Source: Daejeonella sp. JGW-45
GTDB taxonomy: Bacteria; Bacteroidota; Bacteroidia; Sphingobacteriales; Sphingobacteriaceae
Reading direction: 5' to 3'
Length of the DNA stretch: 64,000 nt
Assembly: GCF_029360805.1 (NCBI RefSeq)
Contig: NZ_JARKNC010000003.1
Span: 1-64,000 of the forward strand
The notes beneath the pieces are model-generated. The model was given only the letters and a program-made list of their open reading frames with translations. It made no database searches and was not told the DNA's origin. A program made the translations under genes and the position numbers. This document shows, piece after piece, positions 9,601-48,533 of the stretch. Numbering within the stretch: the first letter of the stretch is position 1; every line of letters begins with the position of its first letter.

Positions 9601-10242
9601 TTACCTTGGGGTTAAAATTCGGAGTTTAGCCATATTTACCATTTTGCGTAAACGTTCCATATGTTTCATCACCCCATTATTATTAAGGGATTTGTGATGA
9701 TCGGTCGACTCATAATTAATGAGGAAATTTTCGAAATCAAGAATGAACTTATAATTGAGTTCTTCCAGCATTATATCGTTTTTACGATATTGATGTTTAA
9801 TAAACTTTTTGAGATAACTTTCGGTAGTATGATAATTCTTCATGGTACCTGGTGCAAGTTTTGTAGCTGCAACTTGCCTATGATATTCAATAACCTTTAA
9901 TAAAGTCATCGTTTCTTCTATATCTTCACCAAGGTACTTGGCTTTAACGGCATCCACGGAAACCGATTTGTTCTGCTGTATCAATTCTTGGTAACCATCA
10001 GAAATTAACGAGCGCACTTGCTCCATGTGGCTGTTCAATTTTATGATTTCTTCTCGCTTTCCTTTTGCTCTTCCTTTTGCTTCATCCCAATTATTAATTG
10101 ACACTTTACTTTTTAAGGAAATTTCAGCTCTGCGACCGTTTACTGTAATTCTTGCATAAACAACGGCCATCTCGTCTTTCTTGTTTTTGGGTAACCGCAA
10201 CACGAATTGAATCCCAAAGGTGTTTTTACTTTTCATATCCAT
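9601..10242 (-). pseudogene. Tyrosine recombinase (phage-type integrase), C-terminally truncated
   Basis: The 213 residues contain the N-terminal arm-type DNA-binding domain (FGIQFVLRLPKNKKDEMAVV onward) and the SAM-like core-binding domain (TMKNYHTTESYLKKFIKH to KHMERLRKMVNMAK) of Bacteroidota integrases. The whole catalytic domain with its R, HxxR and Tyr residues is missing. Related integrases are usually about 400 residues long. The frame ends at a TAA where an unrelated open frame begins. The start may be the second Met at 10236. The gene faces away from the tRNA-Pro 3' end that was probably its target. As it stands it cannot be active. Confidence 0.8.
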
Positions 10243-10385
10243 TTATTTTATGTTCAACTCATACACTTTGGAGCAGTTCTCGCATTCCAACCATTCAATG
10301 GAATGAAGTGAAGAAGTCAAACAATTATAAATAGCATCAAAATAAATGTATTAAATAAGTGATTTACAGTTATTTATAAGCTATT

Positions 10386-10420
10386 CGGTGAGTAAATTTA
10401 AAACTTAAAATGACTCACCG
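10386..10420. repeat. Inverted repeat between integrase and tRNA-Pro
   Basis: CGGTGAGT at 10386-10393 and ACTCACCG at 10413-10420 form a perfect 8-base inverted repeat over an AT-rich spacer. A further TTAACTCAC copy follows at once. The site lies between the integrase remnant and the tRNA. It could be a recombinase arm site or a small regulatory site; this is inference. The rest of 10243-10477 shows nothing else that I can name. Confidence 0.4.
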
Positions 10421-10477
10421 TTTAACTCACATTTACCTTGATATTCTTTGGGGTTTCTTGATATGATATAAAACAAT

Positions 10478-10510
10478 AAACCCTCAAATTCATAGAATTT
10501 GAGGGTTTTT
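10478..10510. terminator. Bidirectional hairpin terminator after tRNA-Pro
   Basis: AAACCCTCAAATT and AATTTGAGGGTTT form a near-perfect stem with a four- to six-base loop. T-rich sequence follows on the plus strand and A-rich sequence precedes it. It lies just beyond the 3' end of the minus-strand tRNA-Pro and would end that transcript. The short A-run on the left also makes it usable from the other side. Confidence 0.75.
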
Positions 10511-10530
10511 GACCTTACTTAGTGTAAGTG

Positions 10531-10607
10531 TGGTCGGGGTGGCAGGATTCGAACCTACGACCTCCTGGTCCCAAACCAGGCGCGATACCGGGCTACGCTA
10601 CACCCCG
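10531..10607 (-). tRNA. tRNA-Pro (TGG anticodon)
   Basis: The minus strand folds as a 77-nucleotide tRNA including an encoded CCA (10533-10531). The acceptor arms are CGGGGTG and CACCCCG. The anticodon stem CCTGG/CCAGG holds the loop TTTGGGA with anticodon TGG. The T arm contains GGTTCGAATCC. Its 3' end faces the arsenic island and is the probable integration target. It has a strong promoter upstream and a terminator downstream. Confidence 0.95.
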
Positions 10608-10847: not shown

Positions 10848-12902
10848 TCAAGGTTTCTCGTCATGCTGTATCGCCGGGAAAATAAGGAACCTCATGATAA
10901 GCGAGCCCAGCACAATGCCTGTGAAGATGATCAGCAACAGTGCTGTAAATGGCATATCAACACAGTCCTGGCCAGCGCCAAACCAGGGAATATTGTTATC
11001 AATGTACAACCACATGAATATGGTGATGATAAACAGGTTGAAGCAGACAATAAGAACCCGGAAGAGGGTCTTCTTCCATTTCCAGCGCTCGCCGTTTTCC
11101 TTGATCTTTAAGATAAGGATAACCGTCAGTGCTATTGAGACAAGCGCCAGGAAGATATTAAAGATGGTAAGAAGAAGTGTTTCGGGCTGGTCGTAGCTTG
11201 GGTCGCATGGATGCTGTAAAGCGTAATAGTAGGCAACCGTATTCTTTTTAATGTACCCCCAGACTGAGCCGTCAATGCCACCGGCACCTTTTAGCAATAT
11301 CGTTTCTTTGGAAACCGTATCGATTTTAACGAATTTGTTAGCCAGGGCATCCCACAGCTCGCCGTAACCGCCATCGGCTCCCAGTTCCCAGAAAGCCACT
11401 CCACCAAGGCCATTTTGCAAAATAAAATCGTATTTCTGTTCGAGGGACCGCTCATTATCATAATAAATGTGCCCTGTGAGGTTGCCTTCATCGTCCCGTG
11501 TTTCGATGCTCACAAACCCCTGTTCTTCATGATAGGTTACCGGGGCATACTGGTAGTTCAGGCGGATCGTCTGGTACGGCACATAGCCTTTAAACGTTTC
11601 TGTTCCTGTATCCGGGTTAATTGAGAACTCAGCCCCATAGTAGGAAAGACCCAGGATAAATTTATACGGCGGAATACCGGCATTCAGATAGCGCGAAACG
11701 CTGGACTGCACGCTGTAGTCGCTGTCGTCATTTAGGGGAGCGACCGGCCCCGGGAAGTTAGTAGGCTTCTTGCTGAAATTGATGATAAACTTGTCGACCA
11801 GGGTGTCCAGGCTTGCAATATCATAGGCTTTCAGATCATCGTATACCGGCAGGGTAACTGCGATCTGGTATTGCTTCTGCTTTGCCCTGTAGGCTTTAGA
11901 CAGCGAGCCGACAAAATCAACGAAGTAGGAGCGGAGCCTCTGGTTTAAGCCAGTTACCTGAATGTTTACCCCGTCGGCCCCCCGGTGTTCCAGGAGCTCC
12001 AGGGTTTTGCTGATCATGGTTTTCATGGCGGTCTGGTTCGTCAGAAACCTTGCCATTTCCACAGAGCTTTTTGTCGTAACGGTCAGGTATACTTTTGAAC
12101 CGCCTTCCTTTGCACTTTCAATGATGGGGGCATCATTCCAGGAATTGAAGTTCTTCGCAAAACCCGTATTGCCATCCAGATCGTATGAATTATAAAGCAG
12201 GCCGGTGAGGGTGGTAAAATTATAGGGATTGACCCTGTAGCCGCTTTCATACATGTAATTACCCAGGACCTCTACGCGCCGGCTTAGCTTCAGCCTGTAC
12301 CTGACGACAACACTGTCGTTTAGCGTATCAATAAATGCTTCCTTGCGGGCATAGATGTCGCGCATGAGTTTAAGACGCTCCTGCCGGGTTTTTACCTGCT
12401 CATCGTCTTCTTTAGTATCGGTGAGTATTGGGATCAGCCGGTCTACCAGGTCATTGATATACTTATCATTAGGGTCCAACTCCTTAGTAACCTTGAATGG
12501 TCTTTTGCTGGGATCACCGCCCGATGGCTGTTCTTCGGCCGGAGCCGCCCCTTCGGGTATCTTTATTTCCTTGATAAGCTCAAGGAGCATGTCAAATTGC
12601 TGCTTATTGGCTTCCGAAAGCTCACTCTTTAGCTTTTCGAGATCCTGAACAGTAGCAACGGTAGAATCTTTTGAGATCATCTTCTCAATGATCGCCTGGA
12701 CTCGCTTCTGTTCCTTGGTTATCGTGTTTTTCCGAAACTTAATTGCCTCGGATAACTTCTTGAGAAGGTTAGCTTTTTTTGTAGTGTCTTTTTTTGCTTT
12801 AGGCTGCTGGTATACGATAAGAGTTCGTTCAGGATATGCAAGCAATGTTTTTCCGCCCAGAAGCAAAAAAACCAAGAGAAATAAAGTAATAATTTTCGGC
12901 AT
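10848..12902 (-). CDS. Membrane-anchored GH18-like protein with degenerate active site
   Basis: From the ATG at 12902 the product has 684 residues; an ATG at 12923 would add seven. It has an N-terminal signal or anchor (ITLFLLVFLLLGGKTLLAY), a charged helical segment, a glycoside hydrolase family 18-like TIM barrel and three C-terminal transmembrane helices (about residues 576-599, 615-636, 652-676). GH18 chitinases need DGxDxDxE; the matching segment here is ADGVNIQVTG at about residues 308-317, so two acidic residues and the proton-donor Glu are gone. A later GGVAFWELGADG fits the last GH18 strand. It is therefore probably a glycan-binding or structural protein exposed in the periplasm. It is divergent from the eCIS operon across 180 bases of AT-rich DNA and may belong to that system, but this is inferred from position. 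Confidence 0.75.
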   Translation of the reverse strand: MPKIITLFLLVFLLLGGKTLLAYPERTLIVYQQPKAKKDTTKKANLLKKLSEAIKFRKNTITKEQKRVQAIIEKMISKDSTVATVQDLEKLKSELSEANKQQFDMLLELIKEIKIPEGAAPAEEQPSGGDPSKRPFKVTKELDPNDKYINDLVDRLIPILTDTKEDDEQVKTRQERLKLMRDIYARKEAFIDTLNDSVVVRYRLKLSRRVEVLGNYMYESGYRVNPYNFTTLTGLLYNSYDLDGNTGFAKNFNSWNDAPIIESAKEGGSKVYLTVTTKSSVEMARFLTNQTAMKTMISKTLELLEHRGADGVNIQVTGLNQRLRSYFVDFVGSLSKAYRAKQKQYQIAVTLPVYDDLKAYDIASLDTLVDKFIINFSKKPTNFPGPVAPLNDDSDYSVQSSVSRYLNAGIPPYKFILGLSYYGAEFSINPDTGTETFKGYVPYQTIRLNYQYAPVTYHEEQGFVSIETRDDEGNLTGHIYYDNERSLEQKYDFILQNGLGGVAFWELGADGGYGELWDALANKFVKIDTVSKETILLKGAGGIDGSVWGYIKKNTVAYYYALQHPCDPSYDQPETLLLTIFNIFLALVSIALTVILILKIKENGERWKWKKTLFRVLIVCFNLFIITIFMWLYIDNNIPWFGAGQDCVDMPFTALLLIIFTGIVLGSLIMRFLIFPAIQHDEKP

Positions 12903-13084
12903 ATGTCTTTCGTAGGACGACACTAAATCTCGTGAAAAAAAATTATAGTATATTTTTTAAATTAATTTTCTTAATGTTACAAAAGTTTTTAACACTATTT
13001 TTAAACATATTTACTTTAGGACATGGAATTTTATTGTCAAAGTGTTATATATTTAAGATAACAAAAATGTTAAAATAAATATAA

Positions 13085-36848: not shown

Positions 36849-38789
36849 ATGAGTAAAAAAAATAGCGGCATTTGGGAAAAGATTAAACTTGTCTTGATTA
36901 TCCTGTCTGTCTTGCTGGTGTTTGTACTTGGCGTTTTGGGCTTCCAGGAAACCACAGGTTCGGATTTTAATTTTTTTGGGGCCATCTATTCTACGATCTG
37001 CCTGTTCCTGATGGGGAACGCGGATCCTGTTGTCGGAAGCAATTACCTTCTCGCTGCACAGTACCTTGCTGCTATTCTGTTCAGTCTCGGGGTTTTTTCT
37101 TTGGTCTTTGACCAGGTGTACAACGCGTATGTCATCGCAAAGATCAGGTTCCGGTATCGCGACCACATTGTCGTATTTTCCCTGAATATAGTAGGGCAAA
37201 AGATCACGGAAGAGCTTTTGGTAAAAGGATATAAGGTAGTCGTTGTGGAAAGTGACAAGGAAAACAGCTTTATCCATCAGATAAAAGAAAAGGGCGGACT
37301 GGTAGTGATCGGCAATGGGACAGATGGGAAGGCTATCGGTAACGCAGGATTAACGGTAGCGAAGACATGTATTATTGCGGGTGACGATGATAAAGAGAAT
37401 ATGGAAATCGCCAATGAGGTTCTTTTTTACCGCGAGAAAAAAAATACCGAAGAGTCTTTAAAGATCATGCTTCATATCACAGATAATAACAATATAAATG
37501 TACTGAAAGACTATCTTGACATTCACAATGAAGATGAGGACTACGACCTGGAAACATTTAACGTGTCGCAGCTTGCAGCCAGGAAGATCTACGATCTTTA
37601 CCCTCCTCACAACTATGTAAATCCCGCACAGGATGAAGAGAACATTATCGCCGTTGTTGGCTACAATCAAACTGCCGAAGAATTTCTGCTGGAAAACATT
37701 ATCCTCAGCCATTATCCGGAGTTAAGCAATCTTCAGGTTTATCTTGTCGACAAAGAGGCCGATCAGCATTTTAATGATTTTAGTTATAAGTATCCTTTCT
37801 ATGCTGAATTTATAGACATTATACCTGTTAAGCTGCACAACAGCAGCTTTTACGCCAACTTTGCCTTATCGAAGAAACATATTGAAAAATTAAGCAAGGC
37901 TAAAGCAGTTTATATGTTTGGTGACAGCGATGCTGGTTTGCTAACAAGTTCGGCCAACCTCAGGCAGTTTTTCTATAATCAAACATCCAGTGTTTCCCAG
38001 ACCCCGATCATCATTTGTCTGCCGGAAGATGCAGGCATTACGGAGCTTCTTGATTCTAACCGTGATCCAAAAACTAATGCCACAAATGTATTCAGTAAAA
38101 AGCTGAATATTCAGTTGTATCACGGTGTATCAGATTCCTGTACAACCGAAAGCCTGCTTGAGCACAGTGAACTGATTGACAAGCTGTCTAAACTTATAAA
38201 TTATTATTATTCAATTAAATACGAGTTTTCATATGAACTAAAAGATCGATGGGATGTAAAAGATCCGGAGAATGTTGTAAGCAGGCTGGAAAAGTTTTTA
38301 CTGGCAATGCCGGATGATGAAGAAAAGATAACCGACAAAGCGATTCAGAAGCGCGTGATCCGTTTTCTTTCGGATGAAACCGGCATCCATTATAATTCGC
38401 TTTATTCCCGTTTATCGATCGAGAAAAGATGGAATATTCTTACACACAGGAAGAAAGATTCAAACCGCTACGCAGCAAGGCAGCTGGCGCTTAAATTCAG
38501 TGCCTTAAAGCGGATCGGTTGTGAGCCGCTTACCAATGAGAATATTGTACGTTTTTACGGCCGGCTGGCACCAATGGAACATAAGCGGTGGAGTGCTGAA
38601 AAGATGGTTTTTAATTACAAGTATGGAGTTTTGGTCGCTGACAAGAACGACAGGTATGTTTTGAAGGATATATTAAAGATACATGATCAGCTCATACCTT
38701 ACGATAAGTTAACCGAGATAGAAAAAGAAAAAGATTTGAATTTGTTTTTGCTGCTGCCACTGCTCAGCCGGGTTGGCAGTAAAAACTGA
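36849..38789 (+). CDS. Two-TM RCK/TrkA-N protein with C-terminal RyR domain
   Basis: The 646-residue protein begins with a transmembrane helix (KLVLIILSVLLVFVLGVLGF), a pore-loop-like stretch and a second helix (LAAILFSLGVFSLVF). Two Rossmann-type TrkA-N/RCK domains follow (HIVVFSLNIVGQKITEELLV and IIAVVGYNQTAEEFLLENII). Near the C-terminus is a RyR-type domain, MEHKRWSAEKMVFNYKYGV to HDQLIPYDKLTEIEKEKD. The layout is that of a ligand-gated channel, but the TVGYG filter is absent (YSTICLFLMGNADPV instead). RyR domains in bacteria have been proposed to sense nucleotide-derived signals in conflict systems. It is the first gene of a five-gene operon; the gap to the TIR gene is 10 bases. Confidence 0.8.
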   Translation: MSKKNSGIWEKIKLVLIILSVLLVFVLGVLGFQETTGSDFNFFGAIYSTICLFLMGNADPVVGSNYLLAAQYLAAILFSLGVFSLVFDQVYNAYVIAKIRFRYRDHIVVFSLNIVGQKITEELLVKGYKVVVVESDKENSFIHQIKEKGGLVVIGNGTDGKAIGNAGLTVAKTCIIAGDDDKENMEIANEVLFYREKKNTEESLKIMLHITDNNNINVLKDYLDIHNEDEDYDLETFNVSQLAARKIYDLYPPHNYVNPAQDEENIIAVVGYNQTAEEFLLENIILSHYPELSNLQVYLVDKEADQHFNDFSYKYPFYAEFIDIIPVKLHNSSFYANFALSKKHIEKLSKAKAVYMFGDSDAGLLTSSANLRQFFYNQTSSVSQTPIIICLPEDAGITELLDSNRDPKTNATNVFSKKLNIQLYHGVSDSCTTESLLEHSELIDKLSKLINYYYSIKYEFSYELKDRWDVKDPENVVSRLEKFLLAMPDDEEKITDKAIQKRVIRFLSDETGIHYNSLYSRLSIEKRWNILTHRKKDSNRYAARQLALKFSALKRIGCEPLTNENIVRFYGRLAPMEHKRWSAEKMVFNYKYGVLVADKNDRYVLKDILKIHDQLIPYDKLTEIEKEKDLNLFLLLPLLSRVGSKN

Positions 38790-38799
38790 TCGTAGCATT

Positions 38800-40293
38800 A
38801 TGCAGTTCCCTAAAGATATTTTCATTAGTTATGCTCACATAGATGATGAGTCCCTGATCCAGAACCAGAAAGGCTGGATCTCTGAGTTTCATCGTGCATT
38901 GGACATACGCCTGGCGCAATTGCTTGGCAGAAGGCCGGTGATCTGGAGAGATGATTCACTTCAGGGTAATCATGTATTCGATAAACAAATTGTTGATCAG
39001 TTCGAGAAGGTTGCTATCATGATCTCGATCATCACACCACGATATGTGAAATCTGACTGGTGTATTAAGGAAGTAGACGAATTTTATAATGCCAGTCTCA
39101 ATAATATTGGCTTCACTGTAAGTAACAAGGCACGGATATTCAAAGTGATCAAAACTCCGGTAAGAATTGAGCAGCATCCCGAGAAGATTTCGGGTGTACT
39201 TGGTTACGAGTTTTATAATACAGATCCGGGTACGGGGCGTGTTAAGGAGCTTTCCCAGGCATTCGGCAACGAAACGGAGCGATTGTACTGGGAAAAGCTG
39301 GACGATCTTGCTCATGACATAAGTTCTTTCCTTGAAAGTATCGAACACCCGGCCCCTGGTACACAGACTTCGCCGCTGATTGCCGCCAACAGCCAGTCTG
39401 CTGGTAAGGTATTTCTTGCTGAATCCAGCTACGATACACAGGATTTTCGTGACAGCCTGAAGCGGGAACTCCAGGGATACGGCTATTATATCCTTCCTGA
39501 CAAACAATTACCGCTAATCGCTACTCCGCTAAACGAGGCTCTTGCCGCCAACCTGGCTGAATCAGACTTAACTATTCATCTGCTGGGCGAAAATTACGGG
39601 GTCGTGCCCGAAGGGGCACAAAAGTCCATAGTTGAGATCCAGAATGATGTGGCAGCTTCTTATAGCGCCGCAAACGGGATACCGAGGTTTATATGGATCC
39701 CTGAGGGCTGCGAACCAGGTGATGAGCGGCAGATCAGTTTTATAGACAGACTTAATGCCGGCAAAGGGGGGATCACGGGGGCCGATCTTGTACAGGGATC
39801 ATTGGAGGATTTTAAAAGTGTGGTGATCGATAAACTGAACTCTATGAAAAAAGAGGAGAATAAGGAAGAGGCGGCACCGGAAATGTATGATGAAACGGCC
39901 AAGATCATTTATCTGATCTGCGATATTTCAGATATTGACGAAATACGGCCTTTAGAAGATTATCTTTTCGACAACGGGTATGAAGTGGTTCTTCCGATCT
40001 TCGAGGGCGACGAATCTGGCATCCGGGAAGATCATATAGAAAATCTTAAGACCTGCTCAGCAGCCATAATCTTCTTTAGTAATGCAAACGAATTGTGGCT
40101 CCGTTCGAAAACCCGCGATTTCATGAAGATAAACGGCTATGGCCGGGCTAAACCGCTCGCGTTCAAAGCCATCTATATAGCCCCACCTGACAGCCTGGCA
40201 AAACAACGTTTCCGGACACTCGATGCAGAGGTTATTAATGCTTTGGATGGCTTGCCTGAAGAGAAACTAAAAAACTTATTGTCCAGAATATAA
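38800..40293 (+). CDS. Protein with three TIR-superfamily domains
   Basis: From the ATG at 38800 the product has 497 residues; a TTG at 38773 overlaps the previous gene and is less likely. Domain 1 (about 5-185) is a TIR domain starting KDIFISYAHIDDESL, with SDWCIKE in which Glu91 matches the catalytic Glu of TIR NAD-cleaving enzymes. Domain 2 (about 201-345) is a DUF4062-like fold (GKVFLAESSYDTQDFRDSL). Domain 3 (about 366-495) is another TIR-like fold (IIYLICDISDIDEIRPLEDY). TIR proteins cleave NAD or produce signal nucleotides in bacterial defence; this one may make or sense such a signal. It is 15 bases ahead of the nSTAND1 gene. Confidence 0.82.
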   Translation: MQFPKDIFISYAHIDDESLIQNQKGWISEFHRALDIRLAQLLGRRPVIWRDDSLQGNHVFDKQIVDQFEKVAIMISIITPRYVKSDWCIKEVDEFYNASLNNIGFTVSNKARIFKVIKTPVRIEQHPEKISGVLGYEFYNTDPGTGRVKELSQAFGNETERLYWEKLDDLAHDISSFLESIEHPAPGTQTSPLIAANSQSAGKVFLAESSYDTQDFRDSLKRELQGYGYYILPDKQLPLIATPLNEALAANLAESDLTIHLLGENYGVVPEGAQKSIVEIQNDVAASYSAANGIPRFIWIPEGCEPGDERQISFIDRLNAGKGGITGADLVQGSLEDFKSVVIDKLNSMKKEENKEEAAPEMYDETAKIIYLICDISDIDEIRPLEDYLFDNGYEVVLPIFEGDESGIREDHIENLKTCSAAIIFFSNANELWLRSKTRDFMKINGYGRAKPLAFKAIYIAPPDSLAKQRFRTLDAEVINALDGLPEEKLKNLLSRI

Positions 40294-40308
40294 TCAACCT
40301 GGTATATT

Positions 40309-43300
40309 ATGTTAGACGATATCATACAAAATCCCTTTCCGGGGCTTAGGGCATTCGATGAAGAAGAAGATATTCTTTTCTTCGGACGCGAGAAGCAGGT
40401 TGACGAACTTCTCAAGAAGCTTCGCACACAACGTTTTCTAACCGTTATCGGGTCTTCCGGCAGTGGGAAGTCCTCACTCGTTAAATCCGGCCTTATACCA
40501 TCTTTGCATAGTGGCTTTATGTCGGGTGCGGGATCTAACTGGAAGATATGCTCATTGCGCCCCGGGGTAAATCCTATAGGAAATCTTGCGCGGGCTTTAT
40601 CCCAGAATGGAATTCTGTATAATTATGAGTCGCCTGATGATGAGCAGATGTATTCTTCTATCAATGAAAGCGTACTCAGGAGAAGTAACTTCGGATTGAT
40701 AGATGCATTTACACAGTCCGGAATCGACGCTAAAAACAATCTGCTGATCCTCGTAGATCAGTTTGAGGAGTTGTTCCGTTTCATCAAGTTCGAAAAGGAA
40801 GCCAAAGAAGGCAAGCGCGATTCAGTTGCATTTATCAACCTGCTGTTGAAAGCAACGGAACAGCGGGAACTACCGATCTATGTTGTTTTCACTATGCGGT
40901 CTGACTTTCTTGGCGACTGTACAGAATTCCGCGGTCTTCCCGAAGCAATCAACGAAGGACAGTACCTGGTACCTCGAATGACGCGTGAAGAACGCAGGGA
41001 TGCAATTGTGGGGCCTGTCGGCGTGGGTGGAGCGAGCATTACCCCACGCTTGCTGAACCAGCTTCTGAATGATGTTGGGGATAACCCTGACCAGTTGCCG
41101 ATCCTTCAGCATGCGCTTATGCGTACGTGGGACGCCTATAAAAAGAAAAACCCTGAGCCATATTCTGAAAAGGAGATCGACCTTGACGACTACAACGAAA
41201 TAGGGACTATGGAGCATGCCTTATCTCAGCATGCAGAAGAAGCCTACGCTGAGCTGGAGACGCCGAGGATGAAGCAAATCTGCGAATCGGTTTTTCGCGC
41301 GCTTACCGAGCGTGGAGCCGACTCCAGGGGAGTACGCCGGCCGAGCAGACTCTCGGAGTTATGTCAGCTGTCGAATGCAAAGGAAGAGGAAGTTGTCCAG
41401 GTTATTGAAATATTCAGAAAAAAGGGCAGGGGCTTTCTGATGCCGCCTGCGGGGACTCCCCTGACAGCAGATTCGATCATCGACATATCTCATGAAAGTA
41501 TTATGCGTGTATGGGAACGGTTAATGCTATGGGTGGAGACTGAAAATCAGTCAGCTTCTATTTACCTGCGCCTCTGCGACGCCGCTGATCTGTACGAAGC
41601 GGGGAGAGGTGGTTTACTTCGTGATCCCGAATTACAGGTGGCCTGGAAATGGAAAGAGGAAAACGCTCCCAATTCCGTATGGGCATCGCGTTACAATGAT
41701 CTTTTTGACAAAGCGATACTATTTCTCGATCACAGCAAGGAGGAGAACGAAAAAGAACTGCTCTTTAAGGAGCGCATGCAAAAAGAACGCCTGCGCAAAG
41801 CCCGGCGAATAACGGTTATCATTTCGATAATTGCCTTTGGAGCCTTCTTGTTAGCGATCTATTCTTTCCAATTAAGGAACCTGGCTACAAAGCAAACTAT
41901 ATTAGCTGAGCAGGAAAGCGAAGAAGCAAAAAGACAGCGTAAACTAGCCGAAGACCAGAAACTTCTCGCTCAGCAAAGCGAGGCCGAAGCAGAGGAGAGC
42001 GCTAAGCAGGCTCTTATCCAAAAGGGTATAGCAGTAACAGAACAGGAAAACGCCAAAAAGAGCGAAAAGAATGCTCTGCTCCAAAAAGTTATAGCGGAAG
42101 AGCAAAAGGCATATGCAGAGCGTCAGAAGGTTATCTCGGAACGGAATGCTGAAATAGCCAGACAACAGCAGGGAATCGCAGAGACGCAAACCGCACGAGC
42201 TGTGAGCAACGAAAAGATCGCTAAAGAACAAACAGCTATTTCGTCCAGGCTTAAAGATATAGCCCAGGCCAGGAACTTAGCATATGAAGCTATGATGCTC
42301 TTAAATGATAATAAACAGGAAGAGAGCCGGAAGAATATAGTGAGCGCCTACAAACTGAATGCTGATAATAATGGGCCTTTGCAAAACAGCGACATCTACA
42401 ATGCGCTGCATTTTAACTGGATTGGCGCCATTCAAAACAAGAACCAGTTTTCATCTCATAAATTTTCTGTGAGAAGTATCGCTCAAGGGCCGGCAGGCAA
42501 TCAAATAATTTCAGTTGATGAGGCCGGGATACTCTACATATCGAGGGCAGTAAACGGTGTGCTTGAGCCGCTTACTTCTTATGATGTAAAGGATGAAGCC
42601 CGGTCGGTGAGTACATCTCCTGACGGAGCCAAAGCCCTGATTGTAACTGCCACAGGGAAGGGGATTTTATTAGATCTGGCTCCCGGAGGTACCTCGGTTA
42701 AGGAAAGGTCCCGTTTTGCATTCACCGGAATAGCCAGGCAGGCAATGTTTAAGAATAGCTCAGAGTTTGCCATACTGACCAATAAAGGCCTAGGGATTTA
42801 TCGTAACGAAGCTCCGGTAGAGTTCATGCCTGGGAATTTTTCAACGGTAAGTTACAGCCGGAGCGGTAAGCTTTACCTGGTGTCTGGAAATAAGATATCA
42901 GTATTTGCAAATTCAACTAATATCACCGAAAAGCCGGAATCAGTGATCACCCTTAACTCCAGGATCACTAGTCTTACTGTCAGCCCGGGCGACGATTACA
43001 TGGCCGCCGGTACTTATGACGGCGGAATTTACCTCCGTGGCCTCGGCTCTAACAGGATGCCGGTAAGTTTTACGCCTCATGCTTCGGCAGTAAACGATCT
43101 TAAGTTTAAATCTGTGGATGGCCACCTTCAGCTTGCTTCAGCCAGCAGTGATCAGACCATCAAGCTGATGGACGTAAATGCTATCATGACTTCCAATAAT
43201 ACGGAAGATATACTTACGCTAAGAGGTCATAACAAATGGGTTTACAGTATTTTATATACGCCTGATGGAAAATATTTATATTCTGCCAGTGAAGACAAGC

Positions 43301-43365
43301 GGATAATCGGCTGGCACTCATCGATGGGTGGAATTTATAAGTCGTTAACTTCTGATAAAAACTAA
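40309..43365 (+). CDS. nSTAND1 ATPase with TM helix, coiled coil and WD40-like propeller
   Basis: The 1,018-residue protein starts NPFPGLRAFDEEEDILFFGR, the signature of the novel STAND NTPase 1 family. Walker A is GSSGSGKSS at 48-56 and the Walker B region is NLLILVDQFEELFRF (about residue 144). A single transmembrane helix (ITVIISIIAFGAFLLAIYSF, about 501-520) is followed by a long Ala/Glu/Gln-rich coiled coil (about 524-665). A C-terminal WD40-like propeller ends RGHNKWVYSILYTPDGKYLY. STAND proteins are signal-triggered switches that oligomerise on ligand binding; the propeller is the likely sensor. With the helix in the middle, the ATPase and the propeller would lie on opposite sides of the inner membrane. 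The TonB receptor gene starts 1 base later. Confidence 0.9.
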   Translation: MLDDIIQNPFPGLRAFDEEEDILFFGREKQVDELLKKLRTQRFLTVIGSSGSGKSSLVKSGLIPSLHSGFMSGAGSNWKICSLRPGVNPIGNLARALSQNGILYNYESPDDEQMYSSINESVLRRSNFGLIDAFTQSGIDAKNNLLILVDQFEELFRFIKFEKEAKEGKRDSVAFINLLLKATEQRELPIYVVFTMRSDFLGDCTEFRGLPEAINEGQYLVPRMTREERRDAIVGPVGVGGASITPRLLNQLLNDVGDNPDQLPILQHALMRTWDAYKKKNPEPYSEKEIDLDDYNEIGTMEHALSQHAEEAYAELETPRMKQICESVFRALTERGADSRGVRRPSRLSELCQLSNAKEEEVVQVIEIFRKKGRGFLMPPAGTPLTADSIIDISHESIMRVWERLMLWVETENQSASIYLRLCDAADLYEAGRGGLLRDPELQVAWKWKEENAPNSVWASRYNDLFDKAILFLDHSKEENEKELLFKERMQKERLRKARRITVIISIIAFGAFLLAIYSFQLRNLATKQTILAEQESEEAKRQRKLAEDQKLLAQQSEAEAEESAKQALIQKGIAVTEQENAKKSEKNALLQKVIAEEQKAYAERQKVISERNAEIARQQQGIAETQTARAVSNEKIAKEQTAISSRLKDIAQARNLAYEAMMLLNDNKQEESRKNIVSAYKLNADNNGPLQNSDIYNALHFNWIGAIQNKNQFSSHKFSVRSIAQGPAGNQIISVDEAGILYISRAVNGVLEPLTSYDVKDEARSVSTSPDGAKALIVTATGKGILLDLAPGGTSVKERSRFAFTGIARQAMFKNSSEFAILTNKGLGIYRNEAPVEFMPGNFSTVSYSRSGKLYLVSGNKISVFANSTNITEKPESVITLNSRITSLTVSPGDDYMAAGTYDGGIYLRGLGSNRMPVSFTPHASAVNDLKFKSVDGHLQLASASSDQTIKLMDVNAIMTSNNTEDILTLRGHNKWVYSILYTPDGKYLYSASEDKRIIGWHSSMGGIYKSLTSDKN

Positions 43366-43366
43366 A

Positions 43367-46000
43367 ATGATTACAAAACTACGTTTACGGCTGTTATTTG
43401 CGCTCTTTATTCTTGCTGCTGGCAGACTTACAGCGCAGGAATGCGGCCTGAATGCACTGAACGATGCGGAGGGGCAGTATAACATCGGCAAGTTCTACGA
43501 AAGCATTAGCCGGCTGAATTCATGTATTACAGGAAAAGGCTTTACCTACAGTGAGAAGGTGCAGGCTTACAGGCTGTTATCCATGTCGTATCTTGCGCTG
43601 GACTCGGTGGAAAAGGCTGATGAAAGTATTGAACGCCTGTTGCTCCTTAAAGATAATTTTGAAGCAGATACCCGTGATCCGGATCGTTTCAGGCTTCAGG
43701 TATTGTTTCTCAGGCAGCAAATGAGGGCAAAACTGACCTCTTCCGTTTCCAAAAAGGCAGAAAGTATTGAACTGGCGCCGGCTACGATTCAGATTATTAC
43801 TTATGAGGATATTCTGAATCGAGGTTATACAGACGTGGAGCAGCTTTTTCACGATCTTCAGGGATTTGATATTTCAAGAAATTCGGGGCTTTCGTACTCA
43901 GATATGTACCAGAGGGGTTACCGTACAGCTGCGAACACTGATCGCACGCTTCTTCTGGTAGATGGTGTGGAGGATAACGAAATGTGGTCGAATTCGGCGT
44001 TTATAAGCCGACAGTACGCCCTCAGTAATATCAAACGGGTTGAGGTTATCTATGGCCCTGCATCTACTATCTATGGTGCGAATGCTTTCCTCGGTGTGAT
44101 CAATATTATCACTAAAAATGAAGAGGACTATTTCAAACAGGAGAAAGCCTGGAATATCAATGATAAAACATCCCGGTTTGCCGTAACGGGCCATGGGGGC
44201 GCAGGGTCACTTAATACCAAATTTGGCGATGTTACTGTTTCTGGAATGGGCCGGGATGCATTTTTCGCCGTTACGGGCAGGGTCTACAGTACAGATGAGC
44301 ACGACCTCTCATCCTATCCGGACTGGGATAATAAATGGTCAGCCGATGAATTCGGACCTAACCGCTACCAGGCTATTCTTACCCAGGACTATACTGCGGC
44401 ACGTGAAGCGACATATTTAGCAAATGATCCGACCAGGAAATATTTTACTATAAGTCCTGACAGAACCAAGATCCTGCCTACTGCAGCAGCTATTTTCCGG
44501 GCTGACTCCCTTGATCAGGCGAATTATAAAAAGGGTTATAATGGTATATCCACTCAATACTCTGACGAAGCTAAAAACTACTATATGTCTGCGAAACTGC
44601 GGGTGGGTGACTTTAAATTTGGCCTTGAGTATCAAAAATGGTCAGAGGGAGTAGCCCCGATCTACATCGATAAGTATTATGCAGTGAGCAAAGAGCTCAC
44701 ACATTGGGAGGTCCGCCAGCAGTATTTTTATGTGAGATATGATAAAAGCCTTTCAGAGCGTATTTCTTTTTCTAATTTTTCTTATTTCCGGACCAGTGAT
44801 TTCGGGAAGAATGCAGTAACTACCCGTTTCTACGGGTTCGCTAATGCCGGGGTGTCCATGCAGGACCTGGTAGCCGGCCGTAGTCCTTATTTCCTGCCGA
44901 CGTACTTTTCCCAGCAATCCAAGCAATTCAGGTCTGAAACCAAGATGAATTATGTGATCAATGAGAAAATGGACTTTAACCTTGGTGTAGAATTAAGGAA
45001 CGGGCTGTTGCAGGGCGATTACGTGAATTCAACTACTGAGGATCCAATAACGACCGGTACTTCTGCCAACGGGATAAAAGGGGGTAATTATTACTCGATC
45101 ATGGATGTCGGTGTTTACGGGCAGTTGAGTTACCAGGACCGGGCAAGGAGGTTGAATATCAGTGCTGCGGGAAGGATGGATAATAACAAGATTAACAGCA
45201 TATATGGTTATGGTACGGTATTCAACCCGAGATTATCGGTTGTATATTACCCAGGCAAGTTCATTTTCAAATCGATCTATTCTGAGGCTTTCCTCGATGC
45301 ATCGGTTTATAATAAGTTCGCTACGTCGTCGGCGAGATTAGTTAACAACCCTTTGCTGGAACCTGAAAGGGTCAAGAATCTGGAAGTTTCCGCACGATTC
45401 AGCCCGTTTAGCCAAACGTTTATTGAGCTGGCATACTTCAATGCATCCTATAGCAATACCCTGGGAACGGTGAATATTGATACCATGGGTATCAGGACCA
45501 CCCAGTTCCGGGCTATTGGGAAATCCCATATCCAGGGAATTCAGCTTGCCGGCGAAACCAAACTTCTGGAGAAGGTGTCCCTCTTTGCCAACTTTTCCCT
45601 GATCGATCCTACTCGTACTTCTGCCGGAGCAAGCGGTTCGGCTAAAGTCAGGATAGGTGATATTTCCGATTTTTCTTTCAATGCAGGTGTTAATGCAAAA
45701 TTTATCAAAGACAGGGTAAACCTGAATGTCAGGGCCAACTTTGTTGGCGATAAGCCGACCGGGGCCAACACCTCCATAAGCGGCAGCCCGTACAATGAAA
45801 CTCCGAGATACACCCTTATACACAGTGCGGTCAGTTTCAATTTGAATAAGATGATCATGCTGCAAGTTATTACAAATAACCTGTTCGATCTTGATTACGT
45901 AACCCCCGGAGTCCGGGCGGCAAGCGGGGTCCAGAGCTCGAGGATCCCCCAACCGGGGCGGACCGTTACTGCGCGCATCGTAGCGAATTTAGGAAAGTAG
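43367..46000 (+). CDS. TonB-dependent outer membrane receptor with TPR-like extension
   Basis: The 877-residue protein has a signal peptide (about 1-23, RLLFALFILAAGRLTAQ), then a helical TPR-like region (about 25-115, with YSEKVQAYRLLSMSYLALDS). The plug domain follows (TIQIITYEDILNRGYTDVEQ, RTLLLVDGVEDNEMW, YGPASTIYGANAFLGVINII), then a long beta-barrel ending in GRTVTARIVANLGK. Receptors of this type import or sense ligands at the outer membrane; the TPR-like N-terminal part is unusual and may bind partners in the periplasm. There is no SusD partner, so it is not a standard glycan locus. It begins one base after the nSTAND1 gene and ends one base before the transporter gene. Confidence 0.85.
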   Translation: MITKLRLRLLFALFILAAGRLTAQECGLNALNDAEGQYNIGKFYESISRLNSCITGKGFTYSEKVQAYRLLSMSYLALDSVEKADESIERLLLLKDNFEADTRDPDRFRLQVLFLRQQMRAKLTSSVSKKAESIELAPATIQIITYEDILNRGYTDVEQLFHDLQGFDISRNSGLSYSDMYQRGYRTAANTDRTLLLVDGVEDNEMWSNSAFISRQYALSNIKRVEVIYGPASTIYGANAFLGVINIITKNEEDYFKQEKAWNINDKTSRFAVTGHGGAGSLNTKFGDVTVSGMGRDAFFAVTGRVYSTDEHDLSSYPDWDNKWSADEFGPNRYQAILTQDYTAAREATYLANDPTRKYFTISPDRTKILPTAAAIFRADSLDQANYKKGYNGISTQYSDEAKNYYMSAKLRVGDFKFGLEYQKWSEGVAPIYIDKYYAVSKELTHWEVRQQYFYVRYDKSLSERISFSNFSYFRTSDFGKNAVTTRFYGFANAGVSMQDLVAGRSPYFLPTYFSQQSKQFRSETKMNYVINEKMDFNLGVELRNGLLQGDYVNSTTEDPITTGTSANGIKGGNYYSIMDVGVYGQLSYQDRARRLNISAAGRMDNNKINSIYGYGTVFNPRLSVVYYPGKFIFKSIYSEAFLDASVYNKFATSSARLVNNPLLEPERVKNLEVSARFSPFSQTFIELAYFNASYSNTLGTVNIDTMGIRTTQFRAIGKSHIQGIQLAGETKLLEKVSLFANFSLIDPTRTSAGASGSAKVRIGDISDFSFNAGVNAKFIKDRVNLNVRANFVGDKPTGANTSISGSPYNETPRYTLIHSAVSFNLNKMIMLQVITNNLFDLDYVTPGVRAASGVQSSRIPQPGRTVTARIVANLGK

Positions 46001-46001
46001 T

Positions 46002-48533
46002 ATGGCACTGATCAAAGGCTTATCCGGGGTCATCAACCTTCGACCCGAAGAACGGCAATCGTTTCGGTCGCTGTTTCTTTTGTCGTTAATCACCGGTATC
46101 GGCCTGTCATATTACTTTGTTGCAGTAAATACCTTTTTGATCCAGAAAGCAAGTGTGTCCAACCTGCCTTATGCCTATATTATCTCAGGGCTTGGCGGAG
46201 TATTGCTGATAAAGATCTATCAGAGCCGGCAACAAAAGCGAGGTGTAATAAATAGTTACAGGGAAAGCCTTATAGCTTTCTTCATGGTGTCGGTCGGCGT
46301 ATTTATGGCGTTCTCAAAGTTTGGAGATAATAAGGGTTATGCTGTTTACCTGGCTTATCTGGGTTTCTTGTTTAACATGCCTTTTACCATAATCTTCGCG
46401 CTGAGTTTTTCCGGCATTTGCGCACGCTTGTTCAATCTGGCCCAAAGCAAGCGTTTGCTTGCGCTGGTCGGGACGGGGGAGATCATGGCTTCGATCATTG
46501 GGTATCTTACCGCTCCGCTGATCAGCCAGCTTACAGGAAGTCCGAATTATCTATTGCTGCTAGCCGCATTTTGTATCCTTCCGGCACTTGTACCCATTGT
46601 TAAGCTTGCAGCACAGAATAAAGACAGACTGAGCCATCTTCCTGTAGCCAAAGCCACGCTTAAAAAGCTGAACCTATCTTTTTTCGCGAACGAAAGATTT
46701 TATTTGCTGATTGCTGTTGTTTCACTATTTTCGGTTGCAGCCGTCTATTTTGTAGATTATTCCTATCTCATTACTGTGAGATTTATGGCCGAATACAACG
46801 ATATCGAGATCGCTGCAATTGTAGGTTTCTTCTTCAGTTTAGTAAAGGTCGGGGAACTGATCTTTTCGTTCCTTTCGGGCCACATTCTAAGTACGAAAGG
46901 GGTTAAGTTTTCAATTCTACTGCTTCCGGTACTGTTGACTGCCTGTTTTGCTTTTGCGGTAGCTGGGAGTTTATTATTCTCTGGCGAGCCCATATTCATA
47001 CTCGCATTTATATTTTTGGCTAAGTTTTGCGAACGGGTCATACGGAAGGCTATTTCCACTCCTGCAATAAAGGTGCTATACCAGGTAACGGGCCCGGACC
47101 GGCTGCGAATTGAGGCCACCATTGAAGGGGTTCTGAACCAGGTAGCCACTGTAATATCAGGAGTGCTGCTACTCGTATTCTCCGGACTCTTTGCGGGTGC
47201 TGAACCCCTGTATTTTCTCAATATTATATCAGCAGTGTGTTTTTTACTGTTTCTCATTTGGAGCGGACTTAGCCTGAAGCTGTACGAAAATTATAAAAAG
47301 AAGATCTGGGCGTACCTGACAGATATCCGGTCGGATAACAGACCCGGAGGGAGGGATAGGGTAGAGGTGGCGTACACAGCCGGAGATAGTCCGGTATCTG
47401 CCGAGGGTCTTCCTGGTGCCCTGGAGAAAGCCCTGGCAGCGGTCTCCTCATCAAGAAAAGTAAGGGATCTTGGTCCATTGATCAATTATTCACCTTCGGC
47501 ACTGAGCCATATCGGTGTCGATGACGAAGACTTGCTGAAACGTAAGATCATTTCTTCGTACTACTCGAATGATAATTTCTTTTTCAGGCTGGCCGTCATT
47601 AATTTCTTCCGGACCGGTAACGAGAAATTTTCATTAAAGCTGGTGAAGGAATTTGGCGAAATCTCTGACCTGCAGCTTAAATATGAGCTTATTTCGGCGT
47701 ATAATGAGAATGCCGCACGGCCTGACGCCGCCGATCTATTTTATTTCGAAAACCGGTGTGAGTATTATAGCAACGAGCTGATACTGGGAATGTCTGCCCA
47801 GAATGATCTGCGGGAAGTGGAAGATCCGGATCTGCAGGCTGAACTAAAAGCGTATAACGACCTGCTTACAAAGGTATTGTTTGAACTTTTGAAGGTTATT
47901 TATGATCCGGCGGCTATTCAGGCTAGTTACGACATTATCTCCGGTGACGATAGCCAGGATATTGAAAAGAGGCTTTTCGCGCTGGAACTGCTGGATAATA
48001 CGGTGAGTGATGAACAGAAACGGTATCTGATCCCAATTTTTGAACCCGCTCCATTTGAACAGAAGATCAGCAGGCTGCAGCAGTTTGTCCCGGTTTACTC
48101 AGTGAGCAAGGAGAAAAAGCTGAAGGAGCTTTTGATGAAAGATTTCACCCTGATAAATCCTGGTCTTAAAGAGGCCTGCCTGATTGCTTATTATAACCTC
48201 ACCCGCGACAATATCATATTGAATGCTTTCCTCGCAAGCAATATAAAGAATTTGCATTCGAAAGCTTCTCAACTGTTGCATCAAGAAGAAGCAAGCTTAA
48301 AAGAGTTGATGATCAGGGAATTGGGGAAGGTCTATAACCTTAGCCTGGCCCAGCGTACCTATCTTTACAACCAGGCAGTGCAGACACCGGGTGGCAAAAA
48401 GGATAAATCCAGTCCGGCGAAAACGAAAACTGGAAATATTTACGCCGTGGATATGGGTACGGGCAATGGGGCCCTTATCCTGGATGCCTATGCATTGGCT
48501 TTATTTATCGACGTTAATCAATCCGGGGTATAG
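46002..48533 (+). CDS. NTT/MFS-like transporter with large helical C-terminal domain
   Basis: The first 430 residues hold about twelve transmembrane helices and open with RPEERQSFRSLFLLSLITGI, resembling the Npt/ATP:ADP translocase (NTT) branch of MFS-like carriers. The remaining 410 residues are soluble and helical (ELISAYNENAARPDAADLFY, LFALELLDNTVSDEQKRYL), like HEAT repeats. Some bacterial NTT relatives carry such HEAT extensions. Nucleotide transport is possible but not shown. It is the last gene of the five-gene operon, and its 3' end overlaps the convergent GNAT-like gene by 16 bases. Confidence 0.7.
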   Translation: MALIKGLSGVINLRPEERQSFRSLFLLSLITGIGLSYYFVAVNTFLIQKASVSNLPYAYIISGLGGVLLIKIYQSRQQKRGVINSYRESLIAFFMVSVGVFMAFSKFGDNKGYAVYLAYLGFLFNMPFTIIFALSFSGICARLFNLAQSKRLLALVGTGEIMASIIGYLTAPLISQLTGSPNYLLLLAAFCILPALVPIVKLAAQNKDRLSHLPVAKATLKKLNLSFFANERFYLLIAVVSLFSVAAVYFVDYSYLITVRFMAEYNDIEIAAIVGFFFSLVKVGELIFSFLSGHILSTKGVKFSILLLPVLLTACFAFAVAGSLLFSGEPIFILAFIFLAKFCERVIRKAISTPAIKVLYQVTGPDRLRIEATIEGVLNQVATVISGVLLLVFSGLFAGAEPLYFLNIISAVCFLLFLIWSGLSLKLYENYKKKIWAYLTDIRSDNRPGGRDRVEVAYTAGDSPVSAEGLPGALEKALAAVSSSRKVRDLGPLINYSPSALSHIGVDDEDLLKRKIISSYYSNDNFFFRLAVINFFRTGNEKFSLKLVKEFGEISDLQLKYELISAYNENAARPDAADLFYFENRCEYYSNELILGMSAQNDLREVEDPDLQAELKAYNDLLTKVLFELLKVIYDPAAIQASYDIISGDDSQDIEKRLFALELLDNTVSDEQKRYLIPIFEPAPFEQKISRLQQFVPVYSVSKEKKLKELLMKDFTLINPGLKEACLIAYYNLTRDNIILNAFLASNIKNLHSKASQLLHQEEASLKELMIRELGKVYNLSLAQRTYLYNQAVQTPGGKKDKSSPAKTKTGNIYAVDMGTGNGALILDAYALALFIDVNQSGV

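Follow-up and report, generated by a model that had tools for sequence, protein, structure and literature searches.

In Thoeris and CBASS systems a TIR NADase signals to a second protein, and FecA-FecR-type transducers relay a signal from a periplasmic domain at the N terminus of a TonB receptor to an inner-membrane protein that has a periplasmic part. The prevailing view of STAND immune switches is that of cytosolic sensors. As described in the accessible text of PMC13174449, DUF4062 is a TIR-like NADase family that hydrolyses NAD to ADP-ribose, and TEP1-type proteins join DUF4062 with a STAND-type NTPase, several of them also with WD40 repeats. The locus presented here consists of five neighbouring genes of Daejeonella sp. 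JGW-45, and in a literature search largely confined to papers available without subscription no description of this gene combination was found.

The window analysed is a stretch of 64,000 nucleotides at the beginning of contig NZ_JARKNC010000003.1, from a host genome of 4.1 Mb. As shown in Table 1, the five large genes are read in the same direction and encode, in order, an RCK-RyR channel-like protein, a TIR/DUF4062 protein, an nSTAND1-TM-WD40 protein, a TonB-dependent receptor and an ADP/ATP-carrier-like family protein. The gaps between them, of 10, 15, 1 and 1 bases, were already given in a first-pass annotation and were borne out by the ORF coordinates. A single transcript is plausible from this layout, and a scan for internal promoters and terminators gave sites no more numerous than in shuffles. 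Family and profile searches also supported the domains that had been assigned (RCK, TIR, nSTAND1, WD40, TonB receptor and NTT-like). The description of the second product as a triple-TIR protein stood in part, in such a way that TIR_2 and DUF4062 were recovered, while the third TIR-like domain, for which no Pfam family match was found, is drawn from alignment and length only.

Table 1. Features of the window, with positions counted from its first nucleotide.
Feature	Position	Strand	Basis
RCK-RyR channel-like protein of 646 aa, with a pore-helix-like segment and a pair of hydrophobic helices, two Rossmann domains of RCK-like type and a RyR domain at the C terminus	36849..38789	+	TrkA_N 3.8e-12
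RCK-RyR pore part	36876..37118	+	alignment to GsuK
RyR domain	38409..38786	+	RyR structure matches and invariant motif
Protein of 497 aa, counted from its likely start, with TIR, DUF4062 and a third TIR-like domain	38800..40293	+	TIR_2 8.7e-12, DUF4062 3e-6
nSTAND1 NTPase - single TM - long helical region - WD40	40309..43365	+	nSTAND1 6.6e-95 and WD40
STAND TM segment	41809-41865	+	hydrophobicity and charge bias
STAND WD40 propeller	about 42442-43362	+	Pfam WD40
TonB-dependent receptor, signal-peptide-like N terminus	43367..46000	+	Plug 2.4e-16; TonB subfamily matches under cut-off
Receptor adapter domain, residues 26-101, TPR-like, predicted periplasmic	43442..43669	+	profile and weak Pfam
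NTT/TLC-type nucleotide-carrier-like membrane protein; C-terminal region HEAT-like in homologues	46002..48533	+	family profile
Convergent GNAT-like acetyltransferase, 226 aa	48518..49198	-	homologue Pfam and conserved position
Divergent eCIS_core protein, 836 aa	34136-36646	-	
eCIS	13085-33551		
GH18-domain protein	10848-12923	-	
tRNA-Pro	10531-10607		
Truncated tyrosine integrase, 213 aa	within 9601-10607		Arm-DNA-bind_5 and SAM-like domain

The conservation of the set was studied in Sphingobacteriaceae, with 399 genomes searched for the STAND protein (E <= 1e-60) and 399, apparently the same draw, for the RCK protein (E <= 1e-10). The STAND protein gave matches in 14 genomes and the RCK protein in 19, strong (E 1e-181 or better) in 8, and all 8 fall among the 14 STAND-positive genomes (Fisher p 2e-13, relatedness ignored). 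The gene order is the same in 8/8 strong-RCK genomes, which span three genera (Daejeonella, Mucilaginibacter and the genus of G055); the operon is contiguous in G000, G006, G007, G055, G183 and G429, while in G002 and G011 contig ends interrupt it. PMG_265 (locus L019), as a further, ninth carrier, has two additional ORFs separating receptor and carrier. The first-pass annotation had proposed these genes as a five-gene unit, a proposal that would have been refuted if the homologues were rarely neighbours; this is not the case, and the agreement in order across three genera bears it out. The operon is a real conserved unit.

Other loci hold only part of the set. The genomes G159, G187, G263 and G417 have STAND, receptor, a methyltransferase gene (Pfam, 4/4) and NTT, with no match for RCK and TIR in the stretches read around STAND, and in G020 and G371 STAND stands without any of the other four operon genes within 20 kb. 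Since RCK and TIR are absent from many STAND-receptor loci, the channel arm is optional. In a class-wide sample RCK was found in 2/345 genomes, the window's own and G567; the latter carries RCK-TIR-STAND, with an RCK ORF that lacks the first TM and with the adapter gene and NTT absent nearby.

Related STAND loci with other outputs were also seen, one with a HAMP-SpoIIE protein (L083, 4420-6465) and one with a Reg_prop-Y_Y_Y-HATPase protein (L047, 2548-6321). In addition, G074, G607 and G552 (L024, L025 and L079-L082) hold two NTT-STAND-small OMP sets each, with a TIR gene in one per pair.

In the receptor, the adapter domain precedes the Plug (residues 137-244), a putative transducer-type arrangement; it gave weak matches to TPR_8 (0.014) and TssQ_fam (0.0039), and no STN match was obtained in the Pfam scan of the window proteins. 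With a profile built from receptor residues 21-128, an adapter ORF was located at most four ORFs from STAND in 29 of the 37 STAND loci, and immediately downstream in 26 (the 37 leave out loci without STAND, the contig-edge fragment L054 and, for M. hurinus and M. polytrichastri, second copies). The eight loci with no adapter gene near STAND are L052, L053, L078, L083, L085, L088, L091 and L096, and in L083 and L091 contig ends are close by. Across 22 whole genomes, the adapter was present in 13/13 STAND-positive genomes versus 0/9 of those without a STAND match at the search cut-offs, and 15/16 of the adapter matches lay beside a STAND gene, the exception being G633:C7. The receptor adapter domain tracks this STAND class. 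The barrels behind it differ, being TonB receptors or small barrels, with OMP_b-brl_2 in 4/5 of the small ones scanned; moreover, between PMG_265 and the window receptor the adapter is 58% identical and the barrel only 32%. Because the barrel type varies and the PMG_265 adapter is conserved above its barrel, the data fit a fixed adapter with an exchangeable barrel front.

In the STAND protein, the P-loop residues G48 and S50-S56 are invariant in 8/8, so that a Walker A NTPase is combined with a repeat sensor as in broad STAND/TIR conflict systems. Every STAND protein analysed (37/37) has one hydrophobic segment, starting at residues 459-573, and in 37/37 the 15 residues that precede it are richer in Lys/Arg than the 15 that follow. 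From the segment and this bias, therefore, a cytosolic NTPase and a periplasmic WD40 are predicted. The AF2 model was poor (mean pLDDT 58, pTM 0.36), in which, at low confidence, residues 464-540 and 574-666 form long helices and strands begin at 721, and because of this the helical span across the periplasm is uncertain. Compared with the window copy, conservation in seven proteins was higher in the NTPase (71-95%) than in the WD40 (35-75%).

The listed ORF of the TIR gene opens at TTG 38773, and in 13/13 aligned homologues the first residue corresponds to the one encoded at 38800, the likely start; the residue numbers used here are counted from 38773. E100, within an S-x-W-C-x-K/R-E motif, is present in 10/10 of the RCK-bearing-type TIR proteins and in 11/14 aligned overall, and E288 of DUF4062 in 9/10 and 11/14, respectively. 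The first TIR Glu is lost in three of four distant homologues, and the third TIR-like domain has no comparable Glu. Alignments to Cat1 and SNC1 were weak (E 0.06-0.09), and that to KpSwz ends before the KpSwz Glu. From these weak Cat1 and SNC1 alignments and from known TIR motifs, we take E100 and E288 to be the putative catalytic Glu residues. A TIR effector with its motif Glu is likewise a property of broad STAND/TIR conflict systems, the NADase activity being only predicted here.

The alignment of the RCK-RyR family profile with GsuK starts at TM1 and includes RCK1, and GsuK was also the best PDB match of the AF2 model (mean pLDDT 66, pTM 0.43), with low TM-scores. The GsuK K+ filter, TLGFGD, aligns to a variable FLMGNADP-type sequence; the TVGYG-type selectivity filter of RCK potassium channels is absent, and the K+ filter is thus not conserved. 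The RyR part of the window protein reaches 19.6 bits with Pfam RyR, under the cut-off of 27.4. Against the PDB, this part matched 6uhi, 'Ryanodine receptor 1 chimera', with E 3.6e-8 for the whole chain and two matches of about 0.035 each, and chains named 'putative ryanodine receptor', which we take to be bacterial, with E 0.002-0.04; with the whole-family profile, all chains found at E <= 0.01 were RCK chains. Typical RyR domains (PF02026) were found in 1/45 class genomes (G035) and 0/14 controls, a rarity that holds for typical domains only, as the search missed the window's own divergent RyR. Within a EHKRWSAEK motif, W581 and K585 are invariant in 9/9 RCK-RyR proteins. In RyR3 Repeat12, which binds adenine nucleotides, Trp880 and Lys884 contact the adenine and the phosphates, according to the accessible text of PMC12627627. 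From our reading of the motif and the alignment, W581 and K585 would be placed like these two residues.

The last operon protein gave by itself only a weak MFS_1 match in Pfam. The profile of its family, in turn, matched 9j3n, 'ADP,ATP carrier protein 1', with E 1.6e-16 over profile positions 125-436, so homology to NTT/TLC over the membrane part is given by the family profile, and nucleotide transport is putative. This profile also matches HEAT-type repeat proteins, and in the homologue at L024 both TLC and HEAT_2 are above the Pfam cut-off, with a cNMP-binding match just under it. NTT is a looser partner, present also in related loci without RCK and TIR. The operon ends against a convergent GNAT-like gene, missing from the gene list of the first-pass annotation, which overlaps the last gene by 16 bases. 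It adjoins the operon in 8/8 Sphingobacteriaceae carriers, and homologues are absent beside the L019 and L078 loci. In the M. hurinus homologue the Acetyltransf_1 score of 22.7 bits exceeds the cut-off of 20.7; three other homologues stay under it, and the window's own protein gave no Pfam match.

In g17, another genus of Sphingobacteriaceae, eleven genomes were found to have a weaker RCK homologue (E 1e-11 to 3e-20). In the one scanned, TrkA_N and RyR were both found, the latter with 43.3 bits, above the Pfam cut-off, and G035, the sole genome with PF02026, carries a pair of this type. In 5/5 enlarged loci the RCK-RyR gene comes directly, after 0-23 bases, behind that of a protein of 1109-1126 aa in which TIR and WD40 domains are both present (5/5), with one or two hydrophobic segments between them; from the remaining six genomes only short flanks were available, one with a split RCK gene. 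Like the operon, this pair places RCK-RyR close to TIR and to a WD40 that comes with a hydrophobic segment; unlike the operon, it consists of two genes, with no match for the window's STAND, receptor or NTT in the 12-kb stretches read. By a simple scale, 4/5 of the TIR-WD40 proteins have two hydrophobic segments, and the WD40 would be cytosolic if both cross the membrane; in our reading the second segment alone is probably a true TM. Here TIR, a membrane WD40 and RCK-RyR are combined in the absence of a separate STAND protein, which speaks for a relay that passes from WD40 through TIR to the channel.

Given the observed gene content, order, conservation, domain families and adapter-STAND co-occurrence, we propose that the operon could be an envelope-spanning alarm, running from the receptor through the periplasmic WD40/STAND and the TIR NADase to the RCK-RyR channel, a reading to which we give about even chances. 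It is suggested because the adapter tracks the STAND class and the g17 TIR-WD40 gene directly precedes RCK-RyR; together with the gene order in three genera, these observations support the idea of a relay from receptor to STAND, TIR and channel that the first-pass annotation had put forward. Its contacts, activities, topology and outcome are those we infer as follows. At the outer membrane the TonB-dependent receptor would meet a cue; the adapter domain at its periplasmic N terminus would change in response and act on the periplasmic WD40 propeller of the inner-membrane STAND, whose helical region would cross the periplasm and whose NTPase would be cytosolic. The NTPase would then oligomerise and cluster the soluble triple-TIR protein, leading to NAD cleavage, and either a product of the ADP-ribose type or the drop in NAD would act on the RyR/RCK domains, in such a way that the channel-like protein opens or closes. 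The NTT-like carrier may serve for nucleotide exchange or as a regulated membrane sensor. The outcome could be growth arrest, death or adaptation to an envelope attack, for example by a receptor-using phage or an antagonist.

An alternative, also raised by the first-pass annotation, is that the operon controls the production or release of the neighbouring eCIS, with a cue leading to cell lysis or permeabilisation by which the particles are freed. The eCIS itself is real. It is separated from the operon by the divergent eCIS_core gene, 202 bases from the RCK start, and the RCK gene of G000, G006, G002 and G011 adjoins an eCIS_core gene, whole or as an N-terminal part, while in G007 the contig ends earlier. 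Within Daejeonella a sheath match was found in 5/5 genomes with the operon versus 4/15 without (p 0.008, relatedness ignored). The set of G567 adjoins a GH18-TM gene and eCIS_core-like ORFs, a second and weaker adjacency, as these ORFs gave no Pfam match and were assigned by phmmer comparison with the window protein, with a motif as further ground in one case. The association is nevertheless not general, since outside Daejeonella only 1/3 family carriers has a sheath match: M. hurinus (G183), G055 and also PMG_265 gave none, and in M. polytrichastri (G429) the eCIS lies about 350 kb from the operon. Conversely, G008, a Daejeonella, has this eCIS and no RCK or STAND match, so that the occurrence of the operon does not follow that of the eCIS, and sheath matches (any at 1e-5) are common anyway in the family, 73/251. 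With three operon carriers without a detected sheath, eCIS control is not required, and as the main function we consider it unlikely. The adjacency in Daejeonella is real and may be due to shared ancestry, and the eCIS is probably only a neighbour of the operon. The main text of PMC8213781, a survey of eCIS, contains none of the words TIR, TonB and WD40.

Other features of this side of the window were recorded. The eCIS_core protein has, by eye, seven N-terminal copies of an EEEEPLQGKF-like repeat ahead of the eCIS_core motif. The GH18-domain protein, divergent from the eCIS, reads as having a signal-peptide-like start and C-terminal hydrophobic helices. The GH18-TM gene lies beside this eCIS in three genomes (G000, G006, G429), and in G567 it neighbours the RCK gene; it is likely an eCIS companion, perhaps with a role in release. 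Beyond the eCIS methyltransferase gene of G008, at a contig end, a 592-aa protein without Pfam match is encoded (L103, 1-1779). Further to the left, the truncated integrase, in which no catalytic domain was found, lies near the tRNA-Pro gene, about 26 kb upstream of the operon. The GC content is around 35% at 3-9 kb versus 42-49% from 12 kb on, and therefore a composition island, if any, would be the left stretch and not the eCIS side.

A second alternative is an uptake or homeostasis operon, in which the TonB receptor would import a nucleotide-like or metal ligand and the NTT would take it over the inner membrane, with STAND, TIR and RCK as regulators. The receptor and the nucleotide-carrier-like protein do share the operon, and we read a TonB-box-like segment, SSVSK, ahead of the plug; against this, small OMP_b-brl_2 barrels, which are not TonB receptors, are also found with the adapter and STAND, and a TIR with intact Glu would presumably be unusual in such an operon, for which reasons we find this option improbable.

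A classical intracellular anti-phage system, with receptor and carrier as mere passengers, would agree with the TIR, DUF4062 and STAND proteins known from such systems (accessible text of PMC13174449), and is as a whole unlikely, given that in the genomes examined the adapter domain accompanies STAND and that the WD40 is predicted outside the cytosol. A known defence system was likewise set aside, as PADLOC matches were only weak, and so was mobile-element cargo, the truncated integrase notwithstanding, since plasmids searched with RCK (E 1e-5) and phages searched with STAND (E 1e-30) gave no match; these results also count against the classical anti-phage reading.

If the alarm reading holds, a STAND coupled to receptors of the outer membrane would allow a Gram-negative cell to respond to an attack at a stage when nothing has yet entered. 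A RyR-domain channel beside a TIR NADase would open the idea of a nucleotide-gated channel effector to direct testing, and the RCK-RyR/TIR pairing could provide a simple model for RyR domains reading adenine nucleotides. A wider proposal, which we hold as possible and rather unlikely in full, is that of a bacterial receptor class, made of a barrel with exchangeable front and a fixed adapter acting on a periplasm-spanning STAND, together with a TIR product (ADP-ribose or cyclic ADP-ribose) that gates an ion channel directly by its RyR domain; the latter, if true, would be a bacterial counterpart of the animal cADPR-RyR link.

With respect to the described systems, the operon resembles Swarozyc, a defence system with a DUF4062 TIR-like NADase, and TEP1 in the DUF4062 with conserved Glu of its TIR protein (accessible text of PMC13174449), and is unlike them in that TIR-DUF4062 is a separate protein and the STAND-WD40 is predicted to be transmembrane and goes with an outer-membrane receptor. 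A TIR NADase signalling to a second protein makes Thoeris and CBASS a plausible parallel; however, among the five genes there is no SIR2/SLOG ThsA such as stands beside ThsB in Thoeris, no cyclase and no SAVED protein, and PADLOC matches were only weak. As in FecA-FecR, the receptor has a predicted periplasmic N-terminal domain and an inner-membrane partner with a predicted periplasmic part, although the adapter is TPR-like, without STN match, and the partner is a STAND NTPase instead of an anti-sigma factor. Finally, the RCK-RyR protein shares with the GsuK and MthK RCK channels the TM-pore-TM arrangement followed by RCK domains, and differs from them by its lack of a conserved K+ filter and by the addition of a RyR domain.
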